Notes under the pieces: model-generated | Databases searched by the model: none | Told to the model about the DNA's origin: nothing | The model's input: only the letters and a program-made list of their open reading frames with translations | Program-made: the position numbers and the translations under genes | NCBI GenBank assembly: GCA_007132225.1 | Contig: SLPB01000079.1 | Location: 1-35,328, forward strand | Length of the DNA: 35,328 nt | Reading direction: 5' to 3' | Origin: Bacteroidales bacterium | Lineage (GTDB): Bacteria > Bacteroidota > Bacteroidia > Bacteroidales > PUMT01 | Part shown: piece after piece, positions 16,628 through 35,255 of the stretch | Layout: the number at the start of each line of letters is the position of its first letter | Position numbering within the stretch: the stretch's first letter is position 1

Positions 16628-18232
16628 ATGAAAAACAAGGTCCTTATTGCAGGAGACAATCTGAAGTCACTTACTGTTTTAAGAAAAATACTTGAACTAT
16701 TCACAAATGAATTTGAAGTAATAGAAGTAATAACAGAGTACAACCTGGAAAAGATTACAACCGTCCTTTCAGAGAATATCACCGATATAATTATTTTGAG
16801 TTATAACTCTCCTTCTGACACTGGAATTAAGGCCCTTGAAACCCTTAAAAGCAATACACTGACAAACACCATTCCGGTTTTAATAGTCACTGAATTCGTT
16901 TCCTCAGAAGTCCAGCAGGCTATAACTGCGGGTGCAGATGATTTTATAAAAAACCCTGTTGAAAGAATAGAATTACTTGTCCGGATCAAGTACCTTATCC
17001 AGCGAAGCCGCCTTTACAAGGAAAACATCAGGCAATCATCAGAGCTGAAAAAGCTTTCCCTGATAGCTAACAAATCTCAAAACTCAGTCCTTATAACCAC
17101 TACCAGTGGGGAGATAGAGTGGGTAAACAACGGATTTGAAAAGCTTTACGAGTACTCACTTGAGGAATTTAAAAGATATTACGGCACTTATCTTCCGGAA
17201 ATATCGCCTGAATTTTCGAGAGCATTGAAAAAATGCAAAAAAAATGGTAAATGGGTGGTTTATGAAAATTTCTGGACAACAAGATCGGGAAATAAAAAAT
17301 GGATACAGACCTCCCTTACTCCGATAATAGATAACCATGGTGAATTATCCAGTTTTATTGCAGTTGAAACAGATATAACCCAATTAAAACTGACACAGGA
17401 GAGATTGCTTGAAATGAATCAGGATCTTGTAGATCTAACAGTTAACCTTGAGCAGATAAACCTGAAACTTGAAGAACATCAAAAAGAAGTTAGCAGGCAA
17501 AAAAAACTGGCAGACGATCAAAAAAAACTGGCAGATGATCTTCTGATGAATATTTTTCCATATGAAATTGCTGAACAACTTAAAGAAAAGGGGTACGCCA
17601 TGCCCAAACACTACAGGCTCGTTTCGATTATGTTTACAGACTTTGCGGGGTTTACCAAGCTGTCGGATCAATTGAGTATCCATGATCTTATTAAGGAGCT
17701 AAGCATGTATTTTGAAAAATTTGACTCAATTGCCCAAAAGCATTATATTGAAAAAATTAAAACTATTGGCGATTCATATATGTGTGCCGGTGGACTGCCC
17801 CTGAGAAACCACAGTAACCCTATAGATATAGTTCTTGCAGCCCTGGAAATACAGAAGTTCGTAAAAGAAGCCAACAAGATTAAGCTGAAAAATAACCAGC
17901 CAAAATGGGAAATAAGACTTGGCATACATACCGGAGAAGTCATAGCCGGAGTAATAGGAACAAGCAAAATGGCTTATGACATCTGGGGCGATGCAGTTAA
18001 TACTGCAAGCAGAATGGAAACCAACGGCCAGGTCAATAAAATAAATATCTCTGGCAGCACCTACAAGTACGTTTACCCTTATTTCGATTGTACCTACAGG
18101 GGCAAGATTGAAGCCCGGAACAAGGGTCAGATTGACATGTATTTTCTTGAAAGGCTTAAAAAAGAATATTCCGCCGATAAGGAAGGTGTTTTCCCAAACA
18201 GCCTTTTCACAACATTGCTGTCAGAATTTTAA
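16628..18232 (+). CDS. Receiver-PAS-class III adenylate cyclase
   Basis: The 534-residue cytosolic signalling protein has three domains. Residues 3-125 are a response-regulator receiver, but the phosphoacceptor Asp is Ser58 (IIILSYNSPSDTG); the Thr (T88) and Lys (K108) switch residues remain. Residues 142-252 are a PAS domain with a PAC end (FIAVETDITQLK). A coiled coil at about 253-305 includes the tandem KKLADDQKKLADD, as seen before cyclase domains. Residues 328-510 are the catalytic domain. Metal ligands are D338 (FTDFAGFT) and D382 (IGDSYM). Base-specific K378 and D451 (YDIWGDAVNTASRME) predict ATP and hence cAMP rather than cGMP. N458 and R462 are the transition-state residues. All catalytic residues are present. 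No membrane segment is visible. It appears to be a single-gene unit. Confidence 0.92.
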   Translation: MKNKVLIAGDNLKSLTVLRKILELFTNEFEVIEVITEYNLEKITTVLSENITDIIILSYNSPSDTGIKALETLKSNTLTNTIPVLIVTEFVSSEVQQAITAGADDFIKNPVERIELLVRIKYLIQRSRLYKENIRQSSELKKLSLIANKSQNSVLITTTSGEIEWVNNGFEKLYEYSLEEFKRYYGTYLPEISPEFSRALKKCKKNGKWVVYENFWTTRSGNKKWIQTSLTPIIDNHGELSSFIAVETDITQLKLTQERLLEMNQDLVDLTVNLEQINLKLEEHQKEVSRQKKLADDQKKLADDLLMNIFPYEIAEQLKEKGYAMPKHYRLVSIMFTDFAGFTKLSDQLSIHDLIKELSMYFEKFDSIAQKHYIEKIKTIGDSYMCAGGLPLRNHSNPIDIVLAALEIQKFVKEANKIKLKNNQPKWEIRLGIHTGEVIAGVIGTSKMAYDIWGDAVNTASRMETNGQVNKINISGSTYKYVYPYFDCTYRGKIEARNKGQIDMYFLERLKKEYSADKEGVFPNSLFTTLLSEF

Positions 18233-25810: not shown

Positions 25811-26191
25811 TCAAAGCCCTACAGTATGCTTTAGCCTGTTAATTTGGGAATCCCAGAGCTCTTTGGTGTCATCGGCATCAATATCGTCTGCAAAATCGGT
25901 AATTTCCAGCGCAACATCCCCGGTAAGTTCATGGTGATTAATCTTGAATTCAAAAAAAGAATCTTCATCTTCAGATTCCAGCCAGCGGAAACGGATAAAC
26001 TTATTCTCCTTTTGTGAGATCATCTCAGCCTTTTCCTCCGATCCATCCCATATAAAAGTAAATATTTTGCCTTTCAGATTCACATCATCGGCAAACCATT
26101 CAGATAATCCCGAAGGAGTGCTCAATTGCTTATATAAAATATTTATGGAAGAATTAATTGCATATTCTAGTCTTAACTTATTTTTCATCAC
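25811..26191 (-). CDS. SRPBCC / START-like domain protein
   Basis: The 126-residue protein has the helix-grip pattern of the SRPBCC superfamily. An N-terminal beta strand (LRLEYAINSS) is followed by a helix with LSTPSGLSEWFADDV. The beta strands include FTFIWDGSEEKAEMI and KFIRFRWLESE, and a long C-terminal helix ends TKELWDSQINRLKHTVGL. It resembles AHSA1/START-like proteins found next to lptF in many Bacteroidota. Such folds bind hydrophobic ligands or clients. No ligand can be inferred. The start may be the first or second Met (26191 or 26188). It has a good promoter upstream. Confidence 0.8.
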   Translation of the reverse strand: MMKNKLRLEYAINSSINILYKQLSTPSGLSEWFADDVNLKGKIFTFIWDGSEEKAEMISQKENKFIRFRWLESEDEDSFFEFKINHHELTGDVALEITDFADDIDADDTKELWDSQINRLKHTVGL

Positions 26192-26468: not shown

Positions 26469-26542
26469 GGCGAGGTAGCTCAGGTGGTTAGAGCGCATGA
26501 TTCATAATCATGAGGTCGGGAGTTCAAGTCTCCCTCTCGCTA
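26469..26542 (+). tRNA. tRNA-Met (anticodon CAT)
   Basis: A complete 74-nt cloverleaf. The acceptor arm GGCGAGG pairs with TCTCGCT, with G-T at both ends. The D stem is GCTC/GAGC, and the anticodon stem CATGA/TCATG has loop TTCATAA (anticodon 26503-26505). The T stem GGGAG/CTCCC has loop TTCAAGT, and the discriminator is A. The CCA end is not fully encoded (only CA follows). The GGC start and overall pattern suggest elongator Met; a lysidine-modified tRNA-Ile(CAT) is possible but less likely. Confidence 0.95.
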
Positions 26543-26546
26543 CAAG

Positions 26547-26953: not shown

Positions 26954-27145
26954 TTAGTTATACTCAACCTGATACATGTCCTTATGGCTCTCAAATATTA
27001 CAAACCTTTCTCCCTCACTTATTACCCACCATGCACCAATGTCCTTCTCTAACAGAATCCTCATCCTTACTCCTCTGGCCGTGTAAAGCACATTACCCTT
27101 TTTGTAGTCCCTTACCTCTGCTCTCCTCATTCTTGTTGTTTTCAT
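26954..27145 (-). CDS. 63-residue hypothetical basic protein
   Basis: I start at the ATG at 27145, not at the frame's first ATG (27226). A perfect AAAGGAGG lies 5 nt upstream of 27145, a Shine-Dalgarno unusual for Bacteroidota chromosomal genes. The protein begins MKTTRMRRAEVRDYKKGNVLY, is very basic at the N-terminus, and looks like a small beta-rich domain (VLYTARGVRMRILLE, GAWWVISEGERFVIFES). I do not recognise the family. The beta pattern with a basic patch could bind nucleic acid, but that is inference. It pairs with the 67-residue gene downstream. Confidence 0.6.
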   Translation of the reverse strand: MKTTRMRRAEVRDYKKGNVLYTARGVRMRILLEKDIGAWWVISEGERFVIFESHKDMYQVEYN

Positions 27146-27226
27146 TTTTCCTCCTTTCTTTGTTTCCCGGGTAACCTGCCCGGTCATTAAATTAAAATTC
27201 AAACGCTGCCATTGGCAAACATTCAA

Positions 27227-27596: not shown

Positions 27597-29084
27597 ATGG
27601 ATAACGAAACATTCAGAAAATACGGATATGAGATGGTGGACTGGATCGCCGGTTATTTTGAAAATGTAAGGCAGTACCCGGTCAGATCAACGGTCAATCC
27701 CGGCGATATAAAATCACGTCTCCCCAAACAGCCGCCCGCTGAAAGCGATGATATGTCGGCTATATGGAAAGACTTTCATGATATTATCCTTCCGGGAATA
27801 ACCCACTGGCAGCACCCGGGCTGGTTTGCCTACTTCCCCGCCAACAATAGTCCGGCATCGGTCCTTGGAGAGCTGCTGACCGCAGGAATCGGCGCACAGT
27901 GCATGTCATGGGAAACCTCCCCGGCTGCAACCGAACTGGAGGAAGTGGTAACTGACTGGCTGCGGCAAATGACAGGGCTGCCGGAAGAGATGAAAGGTGT
28001 GCTCCAGGATACGGCATCTACTGCAACCCTCACCGCACTGCTTACTGCCCGCGAAGTCGCCACCGGATTTTCGGTCAATGAAAAGGGATTGGTAGGCGTG
28101 CCCGGAAGTATTGATAAGGGGCTGGATTACACTGAGGCCGGGAAATTAACTGGTAATAAAGATACAGGCCGGACATTGAGGGTCTACGCATCGTCGGAGG
28201 CACACTCGAGCATTGAAAAGGGAGTGAAGATTGCAGGATACGGCCGGGAAAACCTTTGCTATATTGAAACAGATGAGAATTATGCCATGAGAGCTGACAA
28301 ACTTAGGGAGGCCATAATGGAAGACCTAATGGCAGGTTTCAAACCAGCATGCGTTGTCGCCACCATAGGCACCACCTCATCAACGGCCATTGACCCGTTG
28401 CCTGAGATCGGACACATATGCCGTGAGTATGGTATCTGGCTTCACGTCGATGCAGCCATGGCCGGCACGGCGGCAATTCTCGAGGAGAAAAGGGACATGA
28501 TGAAAGGTGCTGAATTTATCGACTCACTTGTTTTCAACCCGCATAAATGGATGTTTACAAATTTCGACTGCTCGGCATATTTTGTCCGCAACCCCTCTCA
28601 CCTTGTAAATACCATGTCGATCAGCCCGGAATACCTGAGGACCAGTAGAGATGCCCAGGTAAATAACTACAGGGACTGGGGCATACAGCTTGGCCGGCGG
28701 TTCAGGGCGCTGAAGCTGTGGTTCGTGATTCGCCAGTACGGGGTTAACGGGTTGAAGGAGATTGTGAGGGAACATATCCGGCTGGCACAATGGTTCGCAG
28801 GCAGGATATCTGAAGCTGATGACTTTGAGCTGATGGCACCGGTAAGTACCAACCTGGTATGTTTTCGCTGGAACGACAGGAATACCGGAGAAAAGGAGCT
28901 GGACAGAATCAACAGACAGCTCCTGGTAAAAATAAATGAAAGCGGCGGGGTATACCTTACCCACACCGTTCTCTCAGGTAAGTACACCATAAGAATGTCC
29001 ATAGGTCAGCGCACTACAGTAAAGGCCGATGTTGAAAGGGCCTGGGAGATCATCAGGGCAGCCGCTGTTAAACCTGCAACCTGA
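27597..29084 (+). CDS. Aromatic-L-amino-acid decarboxylase-like (PLP group II)
   Basis: The 495-residue PLP enzyme belongs to the DOPA/tryptophan decarboxylase family and probably turns an aromatic amino acid into the amine and CO2. Landmarks with human DDC equivalents are H203 (cofactor stacking, H192), D285 in WLHVDAAMAG (D271), and K317 in FNPHKWMFTNFDCS (K303, the Schiff-base lysine). Y346 in SPEYLRTS matches Y332, the catalytic-loop Tyr that favours decarboxylation over aldehyde synthesis. The HWQHPGWFAYFPA and NYRDWGIQLGRRFRALKLWFV stretches are strikingly animal-like. A segment at about 160-192 is longer than in the human enzyme. The gene is clearly GC-richer than the core genes to its left. 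The substrate (Trp, Tyr, Phe or DOPA) is not resolvable by eye. It converges on the glycosidase (19-bp gap). Confidence 0.92.
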   Translation: MDNETFRKYGYEMVDWIAGYFENVRQYPVRSTVNPGDIKSRLPKQPPAESDDMSAIWKDFHDIILPGITHWQHPGWFAYFPANNSPASVLGELLTAGIGAQCMSWETSPAATELEEVVTDWLRQMTGLPEEMKGVLQDTASTATLTALLTAREVATGFSVNEKGLVGVPGSIDKGLDYTEAGKLTGNKDTGRTLRVYASSEAHSSIEKGVKIAGYGRENLCYIETDENYAMRADKLREAIMEDLMAGFKPACVVATIGTTSSTAIDPLPEIGHICREYGIWLHVDAAMAGTAAILEEKRDMMKGAEFIDSLVFNPHKWMFTNFDCSAYFVRNPSHLVNTMSISPEYLRTSRDAQVNNYRDWGIQLGRRFRALKLWFVIRQYGVNGLKEIVREHIRLAQWFAGRISEADDFELMAPVSTNLVCFRWNDRNTGEKELDRINRQLLVKINESGGVYLTHTVLSGKYTIRMSIGQRTTVKADVERAWEIIRAAAVKPAT

Positions 29085-29103: not shown

Positions 29104-30426
29104 TCAGGGAATCAGGAATGGAATATTAATAGTTCCTGTATTTGAATTATTATCTGAAACGTAAATAAACAAGCGGTATGCTCCTTTTTGAGAAGGGGTT
29201 TTAAATACAACTTTGTCCGGGTCAACAGACCTTATGAGTCCTTCCATTGTTTGAGGCCTCTGCTCAAAATCACCCCCGTCACTCAATTCTACCGGTTCTG
29301 GAAGGATCTCGGCTCTTGCTGTAATTTGTGCGTCACCAGGGTATTTAATTTCTACTGCTGCCGAATAAACAGCATTCTCTTCAAGTGTGACATTATCAAA
29401 TCGCCCTCCTTCACCAACTATTTCAGCATTTAAGATTCTAGGGGCCATGTGTTCGGGCCATTTTCCTGTCCATAAATACTCCATAACATTAACAGACTCT
29501 GTATTTTCGCCCATTTCTGTAAACAGCCCGTACCAGGTTGGGGTTCTTTCCTGTTTCTGTCCCCAAAGAAAAACATAGGAACCCAAACAGTTTTTCGGAT
29601 CGGAAAGAATCGCCTTTTCATATCTTTCCCTGATAGCCTCTGCCTTTTCAGCAGAAGATTGCTCAATGGGCGAGCCCCATTTAGTTTCCGGCATCTCCCA
29701 GTGACCGGTAGCTCCCCATTCGGTTACCAGGTATGGCCCATTGTATCCGGCCTCCTCAAGCCGTTGCTCCAGGTTAATTATATCAGCATACATTTGAACT
29801 GAGATAAAGTCGAGATAGGGACAATTATCGCGGATATATTCCACCTCTTCCCTGTTAATTCCGGCAAGCATTGTTGTAACAACATGATTACCGTCTACCT
29901 CCTTGATCATCCTGGCTATATCATTAACAGCGTTCCAAACCTTTTTATTGGTATATCCATGATTTAGTTCATTTCCTATGCCCCATCCCAATAATGCAGG
30001 ATGATCCTTAAGTTCTAAAACATCTCTTTTAATATTTTCAAGTTGTCTGGCCACCGCAGCCTTATTGTCATAGTCAAAACCATGCCGTTCCCTGGCAACA
30101 TCAAGTCCCATCATAACCATAAGGCCATTTTCCCAGGCCATATCAAGAACCTCCCGTCCGGTATGTACACCGTTATTTACCCGCCAGGTACGAATGGAAT
30201 TACCTCCATGCAGGGCAACCTGATCACATGGCCCGAATTCACATCCGGCTCCCTTGACGAAGAACTCTTCCCCGTTTACAAAGAGGCGGTACATGTCTTC
30301 AATCTTTTTCAATTCAACGATCGACGGCCCGAATTTCTCAGAATAATCTTTGTCATTACTTTCAAAATCAAATGACATCATTATAGCCGACATCATTACA
30401 AGTGTTAATAACAGGAAAGATTTCAT
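29104..30426 (-). CDS. Secreted (beta/alpha)8 glycoside hydrolase, clan GH-A-like
   Basis: The 440-residue protein starts with a signal peptide (about 1-19). It resembles GH2/GH5-type TIM barrels: LFVNGEEFFVKGAG (48-61) and GGNSIRTWRV (74-83) at the barrel entry. The acid/base Glu is E153 in WGIGNELNHGY, and the nucleophile Glu is E236 in LVTEWGATGHWE. A C-terminal beta-domain of about 110 residues (about 330-440) follows. It lacks the N-terminal sandwich domains of full GH2 beta-galactosidases. It is the third gene of a SusC-SusD-GH set, 169 bp after susD, and presumably trims the imported glycan in the periplasm. The exact GH family and substrate are unresolved. Confidence 0.85.
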   Translation of the reverse strand: MKSFLLLTLVMMSAIMMSFDFESNDKDYSEKFGPSIVELKKIEDMYRLFVNGEEFFVKGAGCEFGPCDQVALHGGNSIRTWRVNNGVHTGREVLDMAWENGLMVMMGLDVARERHGFDYDNKAAVARQLENIKRDVLELKDHPALLGWGIGNELNHGYTNKKVWNAVNDIARMIKEVDGNHVVTTMLAGINREEVEYIRDNCPYLDFISVQMYADIINLEQRLEEAGYNGPYLVTEWGATGHWEMPETKWGSPIEQSSAEKAEAIRERYEKAILSDPKNCLGSYVFLWGQKQERTPTWYGLFTEMGENTESVNVMEYLWTGKWPEHMAPRILNAEIVGEGGRFDNVTLEENAVYSAAVEIKYPGDAQITARAEILPEPVELSDGGDFEQRPQTMEGLIRSVDPDKVVFKTPSQKGAYRLFIYVSDNNSNTGTINIPFLIP

Positions 30427-30595: not shown

Positions 30596-32146
30596 TCAAT
30601 AACCCTCATTTTGGTTAAAAGCTCCCGCAGAAAGGTCTATCTCTGTTTGTGGAATGGGCAGAAAACCTTTGATCGCAGGATCAAATGTAACCGAGAATAT
30701 TTCCTGGTCTCCTTCATAATTGGGCCCTCTCACAGAATGGGTCAGCTCCTGGTTTGCATAATTAAGGCCTCGTCTTATCACATCATAATACCGGATCCCT
30801 TCCAGGGATAGTTCCAGCCGCCTTTCCCTGAAAATATTCTCGGCCGTTGCAGGAACACTTGTTAACCCAACCCTCATTCTCACCCGGTCCAGGTAAGTTT
30901 GGGCGTTATCGCTGCCTAGTTCAGCTGCCATCAGGAGCACATCGGAAAAGCGTATCACACGGTGATTGCATGTCCTGTTCAATTCAAACTGTCCGTCCGA
31001 ACCCCAGTGTTCTGCATCTGAGCTGTACTTTTTGGAAAAATACCCGGTATGCTGATAGCCTTTTACCAGGTTGCCATCCAGTTCCTCCTCCAGAAGGATG
31101 GTATATTCAAATCTGGGGTCATCAGCCAGATCCTCTGCAAGCTTGTGGCTTACCGGAGCAAAGCTCCATCCCCTGTTCCAGTTTCGTGAACCGGTAACCC
31201 TTGGACCCTGCATCTGGGCTGAAAGGTTTCCATGTCCGCCTCTGATATAACCCCAGTCCCACCAGGGAGGTGTGTCGCCATAGGAAATTTCAAAAACCGA
31301 TTCCATTCCAAATTCACCTGCTAACCTGAAATTTAATTCGTAGTCGGGAAACAGGTCATGGTCACTATATTCAATTAAATATTCCAGTTCATCCAAAACA
31401 AATGCCTGATCTACCACCGTACCATTTGCATTCAGGTTTGCACCATAAACTCCGTTATAAAAAAGGTAAACCCTTGCAAGCAATGCCTGGGCGGCCCATC
31501 TGGTTATTCTGCCGGCTTCGGCTGAAGGGACACTTTCGGGTAAATCAGTAATTGCCTCTACAAGATCCAAAGCAATCTGATCATAAACCGCTTCGGGTGT
31601 GTTTTGTTCCTGCTGATATCCAGAAGGCCCTTTAATAGTTGAAGTAAGCAGCGGGATGTTTTCAAAAAAGCGAACTTGTTCAAAATAGAAATAAGCTCTA
31701 AGGAATTTAGCCTCAGCTATGGTTCGTTCTTTGAAGCTGTCCAGTGCATCTATATCGTCAATAACTTCCAGAAACTGATTTGCTCTGTAAATGCCAATAT
31801 AGTTCTTTATCCAGATGGAATGGACAATGCTATTGGTTGGAGGAATATTGAAAGTGTTCATTTCCTGCTGCTGCATACCGTCATTGGCATCAGATCCCCC
31901 TGCATAGGCATCATCCGAGAGTATATCGGAGACTGTAATAAAGGGAGCCCATGCAACGCCGGGAGTTGACTGATAGGTCAGCACATCGTAAACTGCCACC
32001 AGCGCCTGCATAGCATGATCCTGGGTCTGGTAGAAATTTGTCGAAACTTCCTGGTCAAGAGGCTTAAGATCAAGGAAATCATCACAACCTGCTAGAAGCA
32101 ATATGATAAATGATGCTTTTGCTGTATTAAATAAATATTTTTTCAT
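30596..32146 (-). CDS. SusD-like glycan-binding lipoprotein
   Basis: The 516-residue surface lipoprotein has lipobox LLAGC with lipidated C21, followed by DDFLDLKPLDQEVSTNFYQT, the classic SusD N-terminus. Tetratricopeptide-like helices follow (for example AEAKFLRAYFYFEQVRFFENIPLL). The RWAAQALLARVYLFYNG segment and the C-terminal ERRLELSLEGIRYYDVIRRG motif are characteristic. SusD proteins cap the SusC barrel as a lid and hold the glycan. Trp/Tyr/Phe-rich stretches (about 280-330, including PPWWDWGY) may line the sugar site. It is 16 bp after the SusC stop, so the pair is co-transcribed. Confidence 0.96.
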   Translation of the reverse strand: MKKYLFNTAKASFIILLLAGCDDFLDLKPLDQEVSTNFYQTQDHAMQALVAVYDVLTYQSTPGVAWAPFITVSDILSDDAYAGGSDANDGMQQQEMNTFNIPPTNSIVHSIWIKNYIGIYRANQFLEVIDDIDALDSFKERTIAEAKFLRAYFYFEQVRFFENIPLLTSTIKGPSGYQQEQNTPEAVYDQIALDLVEAITDLPESVPSAEAGRITRWAAQALLARVYLFYNGVYGANLNANGTVVDQAFVLDELEYLIEYSDHDLFPDYELNFRLAGEFGMESVFEISYGDTPPWWDWGYIRGGHGNLSAQMQGPRVTGSRNWNRGWSFAPVSHKLAEDLADDPRFEYTILLEEELDGNLVKGYQHTGYFSKKYSSDAEHWGSDGQFELNRTCNHRVIRFSDVLLMAAELGSDNAQTYLDRVRMRVGLTSVPATAENIFRERRLELSLEGIRYYDVIRRGLNYANQELTHSVRGPNYEGDQEIFSVTFDPAIKGFLPIPQTEIDLSAGAFNQNEGY

Positions 32147-32162: not shown

Positions 32163-35100
32163 TTAAAATGTCATGGTCACCCCCAGACGCCATGTTCTGG
32201 CCTGCGGATAAATTCCCCTGTCAATCCCTATATTAAATGGGCTCATAGCACCAATTTCAGGATCAGCACCCGTATACCTGGTTATTGTCAGCAAGTTTTC
32301 GGCAGAAGCATAAATTCTCAGATTCGATGCATTAATGCGATTTTGAAAAGTGTCGCTGAATGTATAACCTAACTGAATATTTTTTAACTTAATAAAAGAA
32401 CCATCCTCAATATAAAGATCAGATATCCGGTAGTTGTTATTTACATCTGTCCATGTATATCTGGGAATACTGGAAGAAGTGCCCTCGCCGGTCCAGCGAT
32501 CCAGGATGGCGGTTGACCTGTTGGTAAAGCGAAGATCCTGCCTTTGCGCTCCGTTAAAAACATCATTGCCATAGCTTCCGACGAAATACATTGAGATGTC
32601 AAACTGTCTGTAATCAACTGAACCGTTCATCCCAAAGGTTAAAGCAGGAGTTGGGTTACCGATCATTGTTCTGTCTTTTTCATTAATAACCCCATCTCCA
32701 TTAACATCCACAAACCTTACGTCACCGGGTTTAGCTCGGGGCTGCAGTGGCTCTCCGGTCGGACCTATATGCTGAAATATTTCTGTCTCATTCTGGAATA
32801 TACCATCAGTTTGATATCCCCAGAAATGCGCTATAGGCAGTCCCAGTTCAGTCCGTGTTACCATACCGGCAACCGCCCAGGTTGCACCTGGCAGCACCCC
32901 TTCTTCATTGCCAATAACCGTCATTTTATTCTGGTTATAGGCCCCATTTATGCCAATAGAGTAACGCAACCCGTTTATATAGTGGCGCCAGTCAATTGCC
33001 AGTTCTATACCTTTGTTTTGTACGCTTCCAACGTTTGCAAACGGGGGACTGTTTCCCACATGTGCAGGAATGGGTATTACTTCAAGCAGTCCCCCGGTAG
33101 TTTTTATGTAATAGTCAATTGATCCGATAAGCCTGTTATTAAAGGCTCCTGCATCAAGGGCAATGTTAAACTGCTCTGATTCCTCCCAGCGAATATCAGT
33201 ATTCTCAATATATGCGGGAGATGCTCCAAACATTCTGCCCCCGCCAAAAATGTATCCCCGGCTTTTATCCATTACCGATACGAACTGGTAGTTTCCAATT
33301 TCCTGGTTACCATTAATACCCCAGGAGGCTCTTAATTTCAAAAAATTTACCTGACCCAGGTCCGGAATAAAATCCTCATCGCTGAGAACCCATGAAACAC
33401 CCAGAGAAGGAAAGATACCATATCTCGTATTAGGGCCGAACTTTGATGATCCATCCCTTCTGATAATCCCGGTAAAGGAGTACCTGTTTTTATAGTCGTA
33501 GGTTATACGGCCAAAAGTTGATAACAGTGACGAATGAGAGGCACCTCCATATGCAGTCCAAACCGTATCGGTTGCCATATTAAGATAAACATGCCTTGGA
33601 TCGGTAATAGGAACATCGGCGTTAAAACCCGACAGGTCTTCAAAGTTAAACTTGCTGGCTGTCGTACCTGCGAGAACGGAGAAATTATGATCATCTACCT
33701 GTCTGGAATAGTTAAGGGTATTCTCAAATTGCCAGGTATAGTATCTGTTGATATTCTTGGAAACCGATGTCTTATCAACATTCAGCTGTGCACCGTTAAG
33801 ATAAAATAAAGGTGTGTGGGAATCATTCAGAACATATGCAAGATCGATCCCAAGGCTGGAGTTTAATCGCAAACCATCAATTATTTCAAGTTCCCCGAAC
33901 ACATTGCCAACAATTTTGTCTGTTCTTGTTTCTCCGGTCTGGATCTCCATTAGTGCCAAGGGATTTACAATCTCAGCACCAACATGGTTGGAAATTCCGT
34001 ATACTCTTCCATCACTGCCAGTAACAACAGGTTCAGTGGAATAGGGGTAAGTGTTGAGTATGTTTTCATCATCTTCAAAAAGCGGTGTAAGAGGGTCCAG
34101 GTTCAGGGCGCTGCTGTATGCACTGTTGAATGACTGGTTGCTGGCAATACCCCGCTGCTTTATATGTGAATATGCAATATTGCTTCCAAAATTGAAATTG
34201 CTGTTTACCTGGTGCCGGGTGTTAAGCCTGCCCGAAATCCGGTCGAATTGTGATCTGTCACCACCAATAATCCCCTGTTGTGAAAAGTATGAGATTGAAG
34301 ATGCATAGGTGGAGGTTTCAGTGCCACCCGATACAGACAATTCATGGTTTGTCATGGGTACATTTTCATGGAACAGATGTTCCTGCCAGTTAGTATTATG
34401 TCTGGGAATCTCCTGCAAATCAAATGGCTCAGAGAACCCTGCATTCCGGGCACCCTCGTTCATCAGCATACGGTACTGTTCGGCATCCAGCATATCAATT
34501 GTTCTGGCAACATTCTGAAATCCCTGGTATCCTGAATATGTAACACTCATCTCCCCCGGGCTGCCGCCCTTTGTAGTGATCAAAACTACTCCGTTGGCAG
34601 CTCTTGCTCCGTATATTGCGGCGGAAGCAGCATCTTTTAACACATCAATTGATTCAATGTCGCCGGGGTTGAGATAATCGATACTTTGAACAGCCATTCC
34701 GTCGACTATATATAGAGGCTCTGCATTACCTGTAGTACCGGCTCCCCTGATCCTGACCGTTGGAGCTTCACCCGGCTGTCCCGAGAGATTGGTTACCTGC
34801 ACCCCGGCAGTCCGCCCCTGCATGGCCTGGTCTATCCGAAGAGTTGGGGTAGAGGCAATCTCAGCAGCATTCACAGTTGAAATTGCACCTGTTACCACCC
34901 TCTTTTTTTGTGTTCCATAACCAATTACCACAATTTCATCAAGTTCAGTCAGCTGAACACCAAGATCTACTTCGATAAATGAAACACCATCTAAAGGAAC
35001 AACCATGGTCTGGTAGCCAACAAATGAAATTACAAGTGTGGCATCGGGACTGGAAACCGTAAGGGTGAAATTTCCATCCGGACTGGTGACGGTTCCAGTC

Positions 35101-35255
35101 AGTGTTCCCTGTTCCAGAACAGTTGCCCCGGGTATTCCATCTCCTGTTTCTGCATCCCTGACAATCCCGTCTACAGTGTGTTCCTGCGCGACAAGTAAGC
35201 CAGAACAGGGTATAAGGACTAATATAAAGAATAGTCTGATAAACTGTGCTTTCAT
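32163..35255 (-). CDS. SusC-like TonB-dependent outer-membrane transporter
   Basis: The 1030-residue protein has a signal peptide (about 1-24). A carboxypeptidase-regulatory-like domain spans about 27-93 (DGIVRDAETGDGIPGATV to VISFVGYQTM). A TonB-box-like stretch (DEIVVIGYGTQKK) comes next, then the plug (about 115-225; IRGAGTTGNAEPLYIVDGM, VLKDAASAAIYGARAANGVVLITTK) and a 22-stranded barrel to the end. The C-terminus ends with aromatic phenylalanine (GVTMTF), as outer-membrane insertion requires. With SusD it imports oligosaccharides of about 5 kDa or less using TonB energy. The start is at 35255; only 73 bp of upstream DNA are in the window, so its regulator and promoter are not visible. 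The plug lacks an N-terminal STN domain, so signalling to an anti-sigma factor is not expected. Confidence 0.97.
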   Translation of the reverse strand: MKAQFIRLFFILVLIPCSGLLVAQEHTVDGIVRDAETGDGIPGATVLEQGTLTGTVTSPDGNFTLTVSSPDATLVISFVGYQTMVVPLDGVSFIEVDLGVQLTELDEIVVIGYGTQKKRVVTGAISTVNAAEIASTPTLRIDQAMQGRTAGVQVTNLSGQPGEAPTVRIRGAGTTGNAEPLYIVDGMAVQSIDYLNPGDIESIDVLKDAASAAIYGARAANGVVLITTKGGSPGEMSVTYSGYQGFQNVARTIDMLDAEQYRMLMNEGARNAGFSEPFDLQEIPRHNTNWQEHLFHENVPMTNHELSVSGGTETSTYASSISYFSQQGIIGGDRSQFDRISGRLNTRHQVNSNFNFGSNIAYSHIKQRGIASNQSFNSAYSSALNLDPLTPLFEDDENILNTYPYSTEPVVTGSDGRVYGISNHVGAEIVNPLALMEIQTGETRTDKIVGNVFGELEIIDGLRLNSSLGIDLAYVLNDSHTPLFYLNGAQLNVDKTSVSKNINRYYTWQFENTLNYSRQVDDHNFSVLAGTTASKFNFEDLSGFNADVPITDPRHVYLNMATDTVWTAYGGASHSSLLSTFGRITYDYKNRYSFTGIIRRDGSSKFGPNTRYGIFPSLGVSWVLSDEDFIPDLGQVNFLKLRASWGINGNQEIGNYQFVSVMDKSRGYIFGGGRMFGASPAYIENTDIRWEESEQFNIALDAGAFNNRLIGSIDYYIKTTGGLLEVIPIPAHVGNSPPFANVGSVQNKGIELAIDWRHYINGLRYSIGINGAYNQNKMTVIGNEEGVLPGATWAVAGMVTRTELGLPIAHFWGYQTDGIFQNETEIFQHIGPTGEPLQPRAKPGDVRFVDVNGDGVINEKDRTMIGNPTPALTFGMNGSVDYRQFDISMYFVGSYGNDVFNGAQRQDLRFTNRSTAILDRWTGEGTSSSIPRYTWTDVNNNYRISDLYIEDGSFIKLKNIQLGYTFSDTFQNRINASNLRIYASAENLLTITRYTGADPEIGAMSPFNIGIDRGIYPQARTWRLGVTMTF

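Follow-up and report, generated by a model that had tools for sequence, protein, structure and literature searches.

A decarboxylase gene of bacterial type, probably acquired horizontally, beside a tRNA-Met gene in a Bacteroidales genome

How does a Bacteroidales bacterium come to carry the gene for a neurotransmitter-type decarboxylase that looks animal at its catalytic residues, and what would the enzyme make? The gene lies in a stretch of 35,328 nucleotides (contig SLPB01000079.1 of assembly GCA_007132225.1; hereafter the window), and an earlier note, drawn from the letters of this stretch, had read it as an animal-like, horizontally acquired decarboxylase beside a PUL. By examining the protein family, the active site, the phylogeny, the base composition and the genomic surroundings of the gene, we arrive at a different origin: the reading we favour, to which we give a probability of roughly 0.7, is that the gene encodes a cytosolic bacterial group II decarboxylase, most likely converting phenylalanine, tyrosine or tryptophan to the amine, and that it came from a higher-GC congener and resides in an accessory stretch past a tRNA-Met gene. 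When a bacterial enzyme of the neurotransmitter type resembles its animal counterpart at the catalytic residues, a eukaryotic source does not follow, as closer bacterial relatives are numerous.

The open reading frame is genuine and its coordinates (Table 1) were confirmed. Its product scores 346 bits against PF00282, the family of group II pyridoxal phosphate (PLP) decarboxylases (gathering score 27; E 2.7e-103), and is the only member of that family found in the host assembly. Assignment to the NCBIfam diaminobutyrate, aspartate, archaeal tyrosine, histidine or glutamate decarboxylases was rejected, the scores being far under each cut-off. Among solved structures, the best sequence match is the DOPA decarboxylase (DDC) of P. 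putida (7xin, 470 bits, ~45% identity), followed by 6eei, 6liu and 6eem (407, 373 and 372 bits; plant), and human and pig DDC trail the plant enzymes at 358 and 356 bits. An AlphaFold model built on a 60-sequence alignment has a mean pLDDT of 88.9; searched with Foldseek, it retrieved 6eem at rank 1 and 7xin at rank 2, with human AADC not before rank 12. By sequence and by Foldseek alike, the top matches are DOPA, tyrosine and aromatic decarboxylases.

Table 1. Position of the decarboxylase gene and of its neighbours in the window
Feature	Position	Strand	Remarks
START-like domain gene	25811..26191	-	last conserved gene before the tRNA; PF19569; synteny
tRNA-Met (anticodon CAT)	26469..26543	+	gene order shared with congeners stops here
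small ORF, phage family of unknown function	26954..27226	-	phrog_31785, E 8.1e-6
aromatic L-amino acid decarboxylase-like CDS	27597..29084	+	495 aa; PLP lysine K317, loop tyrosine Y346
variable loop insert, codons 166-191	28092..28169	+	low confidence in the model at 168-189
putative glycoside hydrolase, convergent with the decarboxylase	29104..30426	-	weak GH2 TIM-barrel match PF02836, 26.3 bits against a cut-off of 21
SusD-like lipoprotein	30596..32146	-	PF14322 and PF07980
SusC/RagA-like TonB-dependent receptor	32163..35255	-	TIGR04056

The single stretch of the model with pLDDT below 50 falls within a loop insert that is hypervariable and rich in Gly, Ser and charged residues. Such an insert occurs, at differing lengths, in only five of 116 family sequences, namely the window protein and those of the congeners G002, G005, G010 and G011 (L004, L005, L006 and L007), and it is missing from G007 (L008), a close sister of G011, so that it was either lost there or gained more than once. 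That the insert is a mobile or palindromic element was rejected: its sequence is present as a single copy in the genome and its stretch in the window holds no repeats, while the short repeats in L004 and L005 are not convincing. Counts of promoter-like sites (nine, against 4.7 with sd 2.3 in shuffles) and of terminator-like sites (two, against 2.6) gave nothing usable.

The earlier note had likened the active site very closely to that of animal DDC, a likeness that was confirmed for the catalytic residues but not for the site as a whole: aligned to human DDC, H203, D285, H316, K317, Y346 and G366 correspond to H192, D271, H302, K303, Y332 and G354, and the protein has the PLP site of a group II decarboxylase, with the H316-K317 pair and the PLP-ring Asp D285. 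These catalytic residues carry no animal signature, since all 116 family sequences, the window protein among them, keep H203, K317 and Y346. Beyond them the resemblance is closer to a bacterial enzyme: over 30 active-site positions (human numbering), the window protein agrees with P. putida DDC at 25, with human and pig DDC at 22, and with two plant enzymes at 21 and 19. Moreover, T82, I101 and F103 of human DDC, which contact the substrate ring, are replaced by A, Q and M in the alignment; an excerpt of PMC8003434 describes these three residues as touching the catechol of carbidopa. Of the 116 family sequences, 102 carry Q and 14 carry N at position 101, while at position 103 all have M except one with F; the set was picked by similarity to the window protein, so that these counts do not describe all aromatic decarboxylases. 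Among the reference enzymes and plasmid-borne relatives the pair 101/103 is I/F in human DDC, V/F in the two plant enzymes, Q/M in the Nostoc and Ensifer rows, and L/L in the rows of P. putida, Gemmatirosa and Deinococcus. No solved enzyme examined here has the pocket type in which Q or N at 101 goes together with M at 103.

The P. putida enzyme has the same fold, the loop Tyr and the PLP residues, but carries S82/L101/L103 where the window has A/Q/M, is without the insert of ~25 residues and stands on a separate branch of the tree; in work of Koyanagi from 2012, it was reportedly termed eukaryotic-type and highly specific for DOPA. Human and pig DDC (3rbf and 1js3) share the group II fold, the PLP lysine, the His, the Asp and the loop Tyr, yet the animal sequence falls in a separate clade, and the window protein is ~40-43% identical to human DDC. 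The plant aromatic decarboxylase 6eem agrees in fold and loop Tyr but has Ser at the position of G366, 6eei has Phe at the loop position, and the plant enzymes lie in that same clade, separate from the window's. More distant is the tryptophan decarboxylase of Ruminococcus gnavus (4obv), which has the group II fold at ~24% identity in structural alignment and whose gene, like the window's, stands alone, as stated in a section of PMC12607914.

Insect aromatic aldehyde synthases are marked by a change of the His. According to part of PMC11308512, the loop Tyr goes with decarboxylation, and its replacement by Phe turns such enzymes into aldehyde synthases. With Y346 and H203 both retained, the window protein lacks the marks of aldehyde synthases, and an aldehyde-forming activity is disfavoured by the presence of the loop Tyr. 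The A82/Q101/M103 pocket, we infer, confers a specificity different from that of the DOPA-type enzymes, and DOPA as the chief substrate looks less likely. Nor was a Biopterin_H hydroxylase matched in the host assembly (~96% completeness), which speaks against an endogenous supply of DOPA or 5-HTP and makes dopamine or serotonin from endogenous precursors less likely. We take the most likely activity to be that of a stand-alone decarboxylase which converts Phe, Tyr or Trp to the amine, and the enzyme is likely to produce aromatic amines. In the proposed sequence of steps, PLP on K317 and an aromatic L-amino acid, probably one of these three, would form an external aldimine, the aldimine would lose CO2 to give a quinonoid, and Y346 would protonate the quinonoid, setting free the amine and not the aldehyde. 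That the enzyme instead works on another class of substrate, or yields aldehyde, is decidedly unlikely: the A82/Q101/M103 pocket, unlike that of the solved aromatic enzymes compared, and the family's Q or N at position 101 would suit such a reading, but the loop Tyr and His203 are retained and the protein stays far under the cut-off of each NCBIfam model for a decarboxylase of diaminobutyrate, aspartate, histidine or glutamate.

The phylogeny bears directly on where the gene came from. Trees of 89, 42, 39, 13 and 11 rows were built from more than 120 fetched sequences, leaving out L023-L025 (on the same contigs as L008, L009 and L007) and the weak match L022; some of the groups submitted to AU tests were defined after inspection of a first tree. 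In the 89-row and 42-row trees the window's genus is recovered as one clade (100/100 in the latter), nested in a wider one (98/94) that also takes in Aminicenantes, B38, Fischerbacteria, Desulfobacterales and a Bacillota MAG. Transfer from an animal or another eukaryote could be argued from the catalytic residues in common and the identity to human DDC, but P. putida DDC and one plant enzyme outscore the human enzyme, the animal and plant sequences stand together as a separate clade in the 42-row tree (100/97; one animal and two plant sequences in the trees), and a clade uniting the genus with the animal sequence was rejected there (AU p 0.00016). An animal origin is thus rejected by the trees and the AU test, and we regard the chance of any eukaryotic donor as negligible; the label "animal-like" does not hold for a sequence that falls among bacterial ones, apart from those of animals and plants. 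P. putida DDC is a long branch in the 89-row and 42-row trees, and in the 39-row tree, which includes four plasmid rows and a distant outgroup, the backbone is open and the genus is not one clade, with the animal-plant group still apart.

At E 0.001, matches were found in 22 of 60 genomes searched (its own included), among them eight of 12 other members of the genus and all three genomes of the sister genus, and in an even draw across the phylum at E 1e-60, 21 of 99 genomes matched (its own included), with none among the 23 that share the class only. A scan of named genome contigs returned at least 581 relatives, of which the best 80 were kept; on plasmids, 77 of 72,556 records held a relative at E 1e-40, all below 60% identity. 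The sister genus, although of the same family, sits in another clade: a single clade for both genera was rejected (p 0.0055), as was one for all 19 Bacteroidales rows used (p 0.00048). A firm position among Bacteroidota sequences of vertical descent, combined with a matching composition, which the earlier note had set as refuting its view, was not observed. Inside the genus, a marker tree of four proteins groups the window genome (G000) with G003, G009 and G012 (85/93, not starred; G003 represented by DnaK alone), whereas the decarboxylase tree groups it with G002, G005, G007, G010 and G011 (100/98), and forcing the marker grouping on the decarboxylase was rejected (AU p 0.0135).

The composition of the gene points the same way. 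It has a GC content of 0.513 and a GC3 of 0.570, a GC3 reached by none of 152 host ORFs of at least 200 aa from 238,565 bases of the assembly (mean 0.410, sd 0.046, maximum 0.546); in line with the suspicion that the gene is richer in GC than those to its left, dnaB and dnaK have GC3 values of 0.369 and 0.371, and on the other side SusC, SusD and the hydrolase have 0.417, 0.428 and 0.393. When codon usage is modelled on 37 genes of G002, G005 and G007, the fit to the decarboxylase is better by 0.050 per codon than under the host model (-1.124 against -1.174); modelled on 32 genes of G003, G009 and G012 it also improves on the host, though by less (-1.137). None of the 152 host genes has a preference as large for the first model (nine lie above zero), and for SusC, SusD, the hydrolase, dnaK and dnaB the host model is in each case the better one. 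The decarboxylase contigs of G002, G005 and G007 have a GC content of 0.50-0.51 and a GC3 mostly of 0.51-0.64, which fits the foreign composition of the window gene.

A vertically inherited gene, whose high GC3 would reflect codon selection or an older, ameliorating history, is the alternative that these figures have to face. It draws on the close relatives in eight of the 12 other genomes of the genus and on a trend in the family as a whole, whose genes top their flanks in GC3 by 0.031 on average, with 75% of 69 loci positive (69 of 80 loci had enough flank). The excess of the window gene, ~0.16-0.18 from the host-ORF figures and hence by a procedure different from that of the flank comparison, nevertheless lies above the largest of the 69 loci (0.131). 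DnaK genes are usually highly expressed, and the low GC3 of dnaK here speaks against codon selection. Since, in addition, the position of the gene varies between most congeners and the marker-gene grouping was rejected, we hold vertical inheritance within the genus to be unlikely, though not negligibly so.

The surroundings of the gene supply the third line of evidence. Up to the tRNA-Met gene, the order of genes (starting with a glycosyltransferase gene and an lptF-like gene and running through the START-domain gene) is common to the congener stretches read. Past it, a 205-aa gene follows after 64-125 bases in G002, G007, G008 and G010; in G012 a single ORF intervenes, other genes take this place in G011 and G009, and for G001 and G004 the contig runs out. 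In the window genome, the 205-aa gene sits with its usual neighbours on another contig (C46), and none of the seven readable congeners has, past the tRNA, a partner of the decarboxylase, hydrolase, SusD or SusC genes (at 35% identity over half the length). As the shared order breaks at tRNA-Met, an accessory stretch, likely a tRNA-borne genomic island, has its left edge at this tRNA and extends over 8.8 kb or more. Given that G009, G011 and G012 differ too just past tRNA-Met (L177-L185), insertions may vary at this site across the genus. The phrog_31785-matching ORF between tRNA-Met and the decarboxylase, found in none of 40 other genomes searched, is possibly the remnant of a phage or an integrative element. 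No integrase appeared among the 27 window ORFs scanned against Pfam, and a second copy of the tRNA end, as a mark of the far edge of the island, was not found in the assembly at up to three mismatches; the contig stops at 35328, inside the stretch.

Composition, gene-order break and the conflict between gene tree and marker tree concur, and on these grounds horizontal acquisition of the decarboxylase, as the earlier note had proposed, is well supported, with a bacterium and not an animal on the donor side. The donor was probably a congener; the direct donor is not in the data, as the nearest relative found is only ~79% identical to the window protein. The gene would have passed from a higher-GC member of the genus into a lower-GC host lineage, to settle in the accessory stretch just past tRNA-Met, and the genus's version of it belongs to a clade common to several other phyla and distinct from that of the sister genus.

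Two further explanations concern the contig itself. In a draft of 181 contigs, a shift of composition at the decarboxylase and right-hand neighbours that sit elsewhere could signal a chimera of binning or assembly, with the gene foreign to this genome; yet the genes on both sides are host-like in composition and codon usage, and no other PF00282 gene was found in the assembly, so that we judge an artefact very unlikely. The gene might also be a working part of the SusC/SusD locus, and it does indeed adjoin SusC- and SusD-like genes, only 19 bases separating the stop ends of decarboxylase and hydrolase. The two sides are, however, on opposite strands and convergent, the SusC, SusD and hydrolase genes have host-like codon usage and the decarboxylase does not, and in those congener stretches that were compared the gene was not flanked by these neighbours. 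While the description "beside a PUL" is correct as to position, a functional tie was accordingly rejected, and we consider it extremely improbable.

Neighbours of the gene mostly differ among congeners, although G002 and G005 share theirs. Among 515 flanking ORFs of 77 loci, nine families listed as common to four or more loci, judged by eye, contained no conserved partner of the kind of a transporter or an amine oxidase. ATP synthase genes do recur among these flanking ORFs: a gene like that of the ATP synthase beta subunit, recognised by eye, lies one or two ORFs from the decarboxylase in 11 Bacteroidales or Bacteroidota loci (L041, L045, L060, L066, L069, L070, L071, L072, L075, L085 and L100), and this conserved position suggests vertical inheritance there. 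Elsewhere in the window, positions 16628-18232 encode a single protein that joins receiver and PAS domains to the catalytic domain of an adenylate/guanylate cyclase, an unusual mix; PADLOC returned weak matches to DndA and SspA only.

The relevance of aromatic amines had been tied to an animal-associated host, a premise that finds no support: no pointer to such a host was found, though one is conceivable, and three congeners (G005, G007 and G012) match the Bacteroidales soda-lake sediment MAGs CSSed165cm_433, CSSed165cm_359 and CSSed165cm_240. Gut Bacteroides, according to PMC12484125, do not as a rule rely on the classical route of aromatic decarboxylation. Within the same phylum, a comparison by description only can be drawn with the aromatic amino acid decarboxylase DisA from Tenacibaculum discolor sv11, which, as described in PMC9605681, is active on Phe, Trp and Tyr and whose amines feed imidazolium alkaloids; one such imidazolium-type alkaloid was seen to form only under basic conditions, according to PMC12787093. 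A link between the window gene and DisA-type alkaloid chemistry is speculation by analogy, and our literature search found no paper uniting "aromatic amino acid decarboxylase" and "soda lake". A broader conjecture, improbable as a whole, is that the proteins with Q or N at 101 and M at 103 make up a large branch of bacterial aromatic decarboxylases with a pocket chemistry of its own, transferred between phyla, whose amines would become antimicrobials of alkaline lakes. If this were true, the amines would condense in alkaline lakes, without further enzymes, into imidazolium-type antimicrobials, and one transferred gene, here as tRNA-side cargo, would give a chemical weapon suited to high pH.

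Among the plasmid-borne relatives, one protein deserves a separate mention. On plasmid NZ_CP151101.1 of Nostoc sp. UHCC 0302, typed as conjugative, the relative at L225:101-1477 has Phe at the site of the loop Tyr (PEFLKN), matching the plant phenylacetaldehyde synthase 6eei. Going by this residue, it is a candidate for a plasmid-borne bacterial aromatic aldehyde synthase; in the tree, it groups with L212 beside the animal-plant clade.
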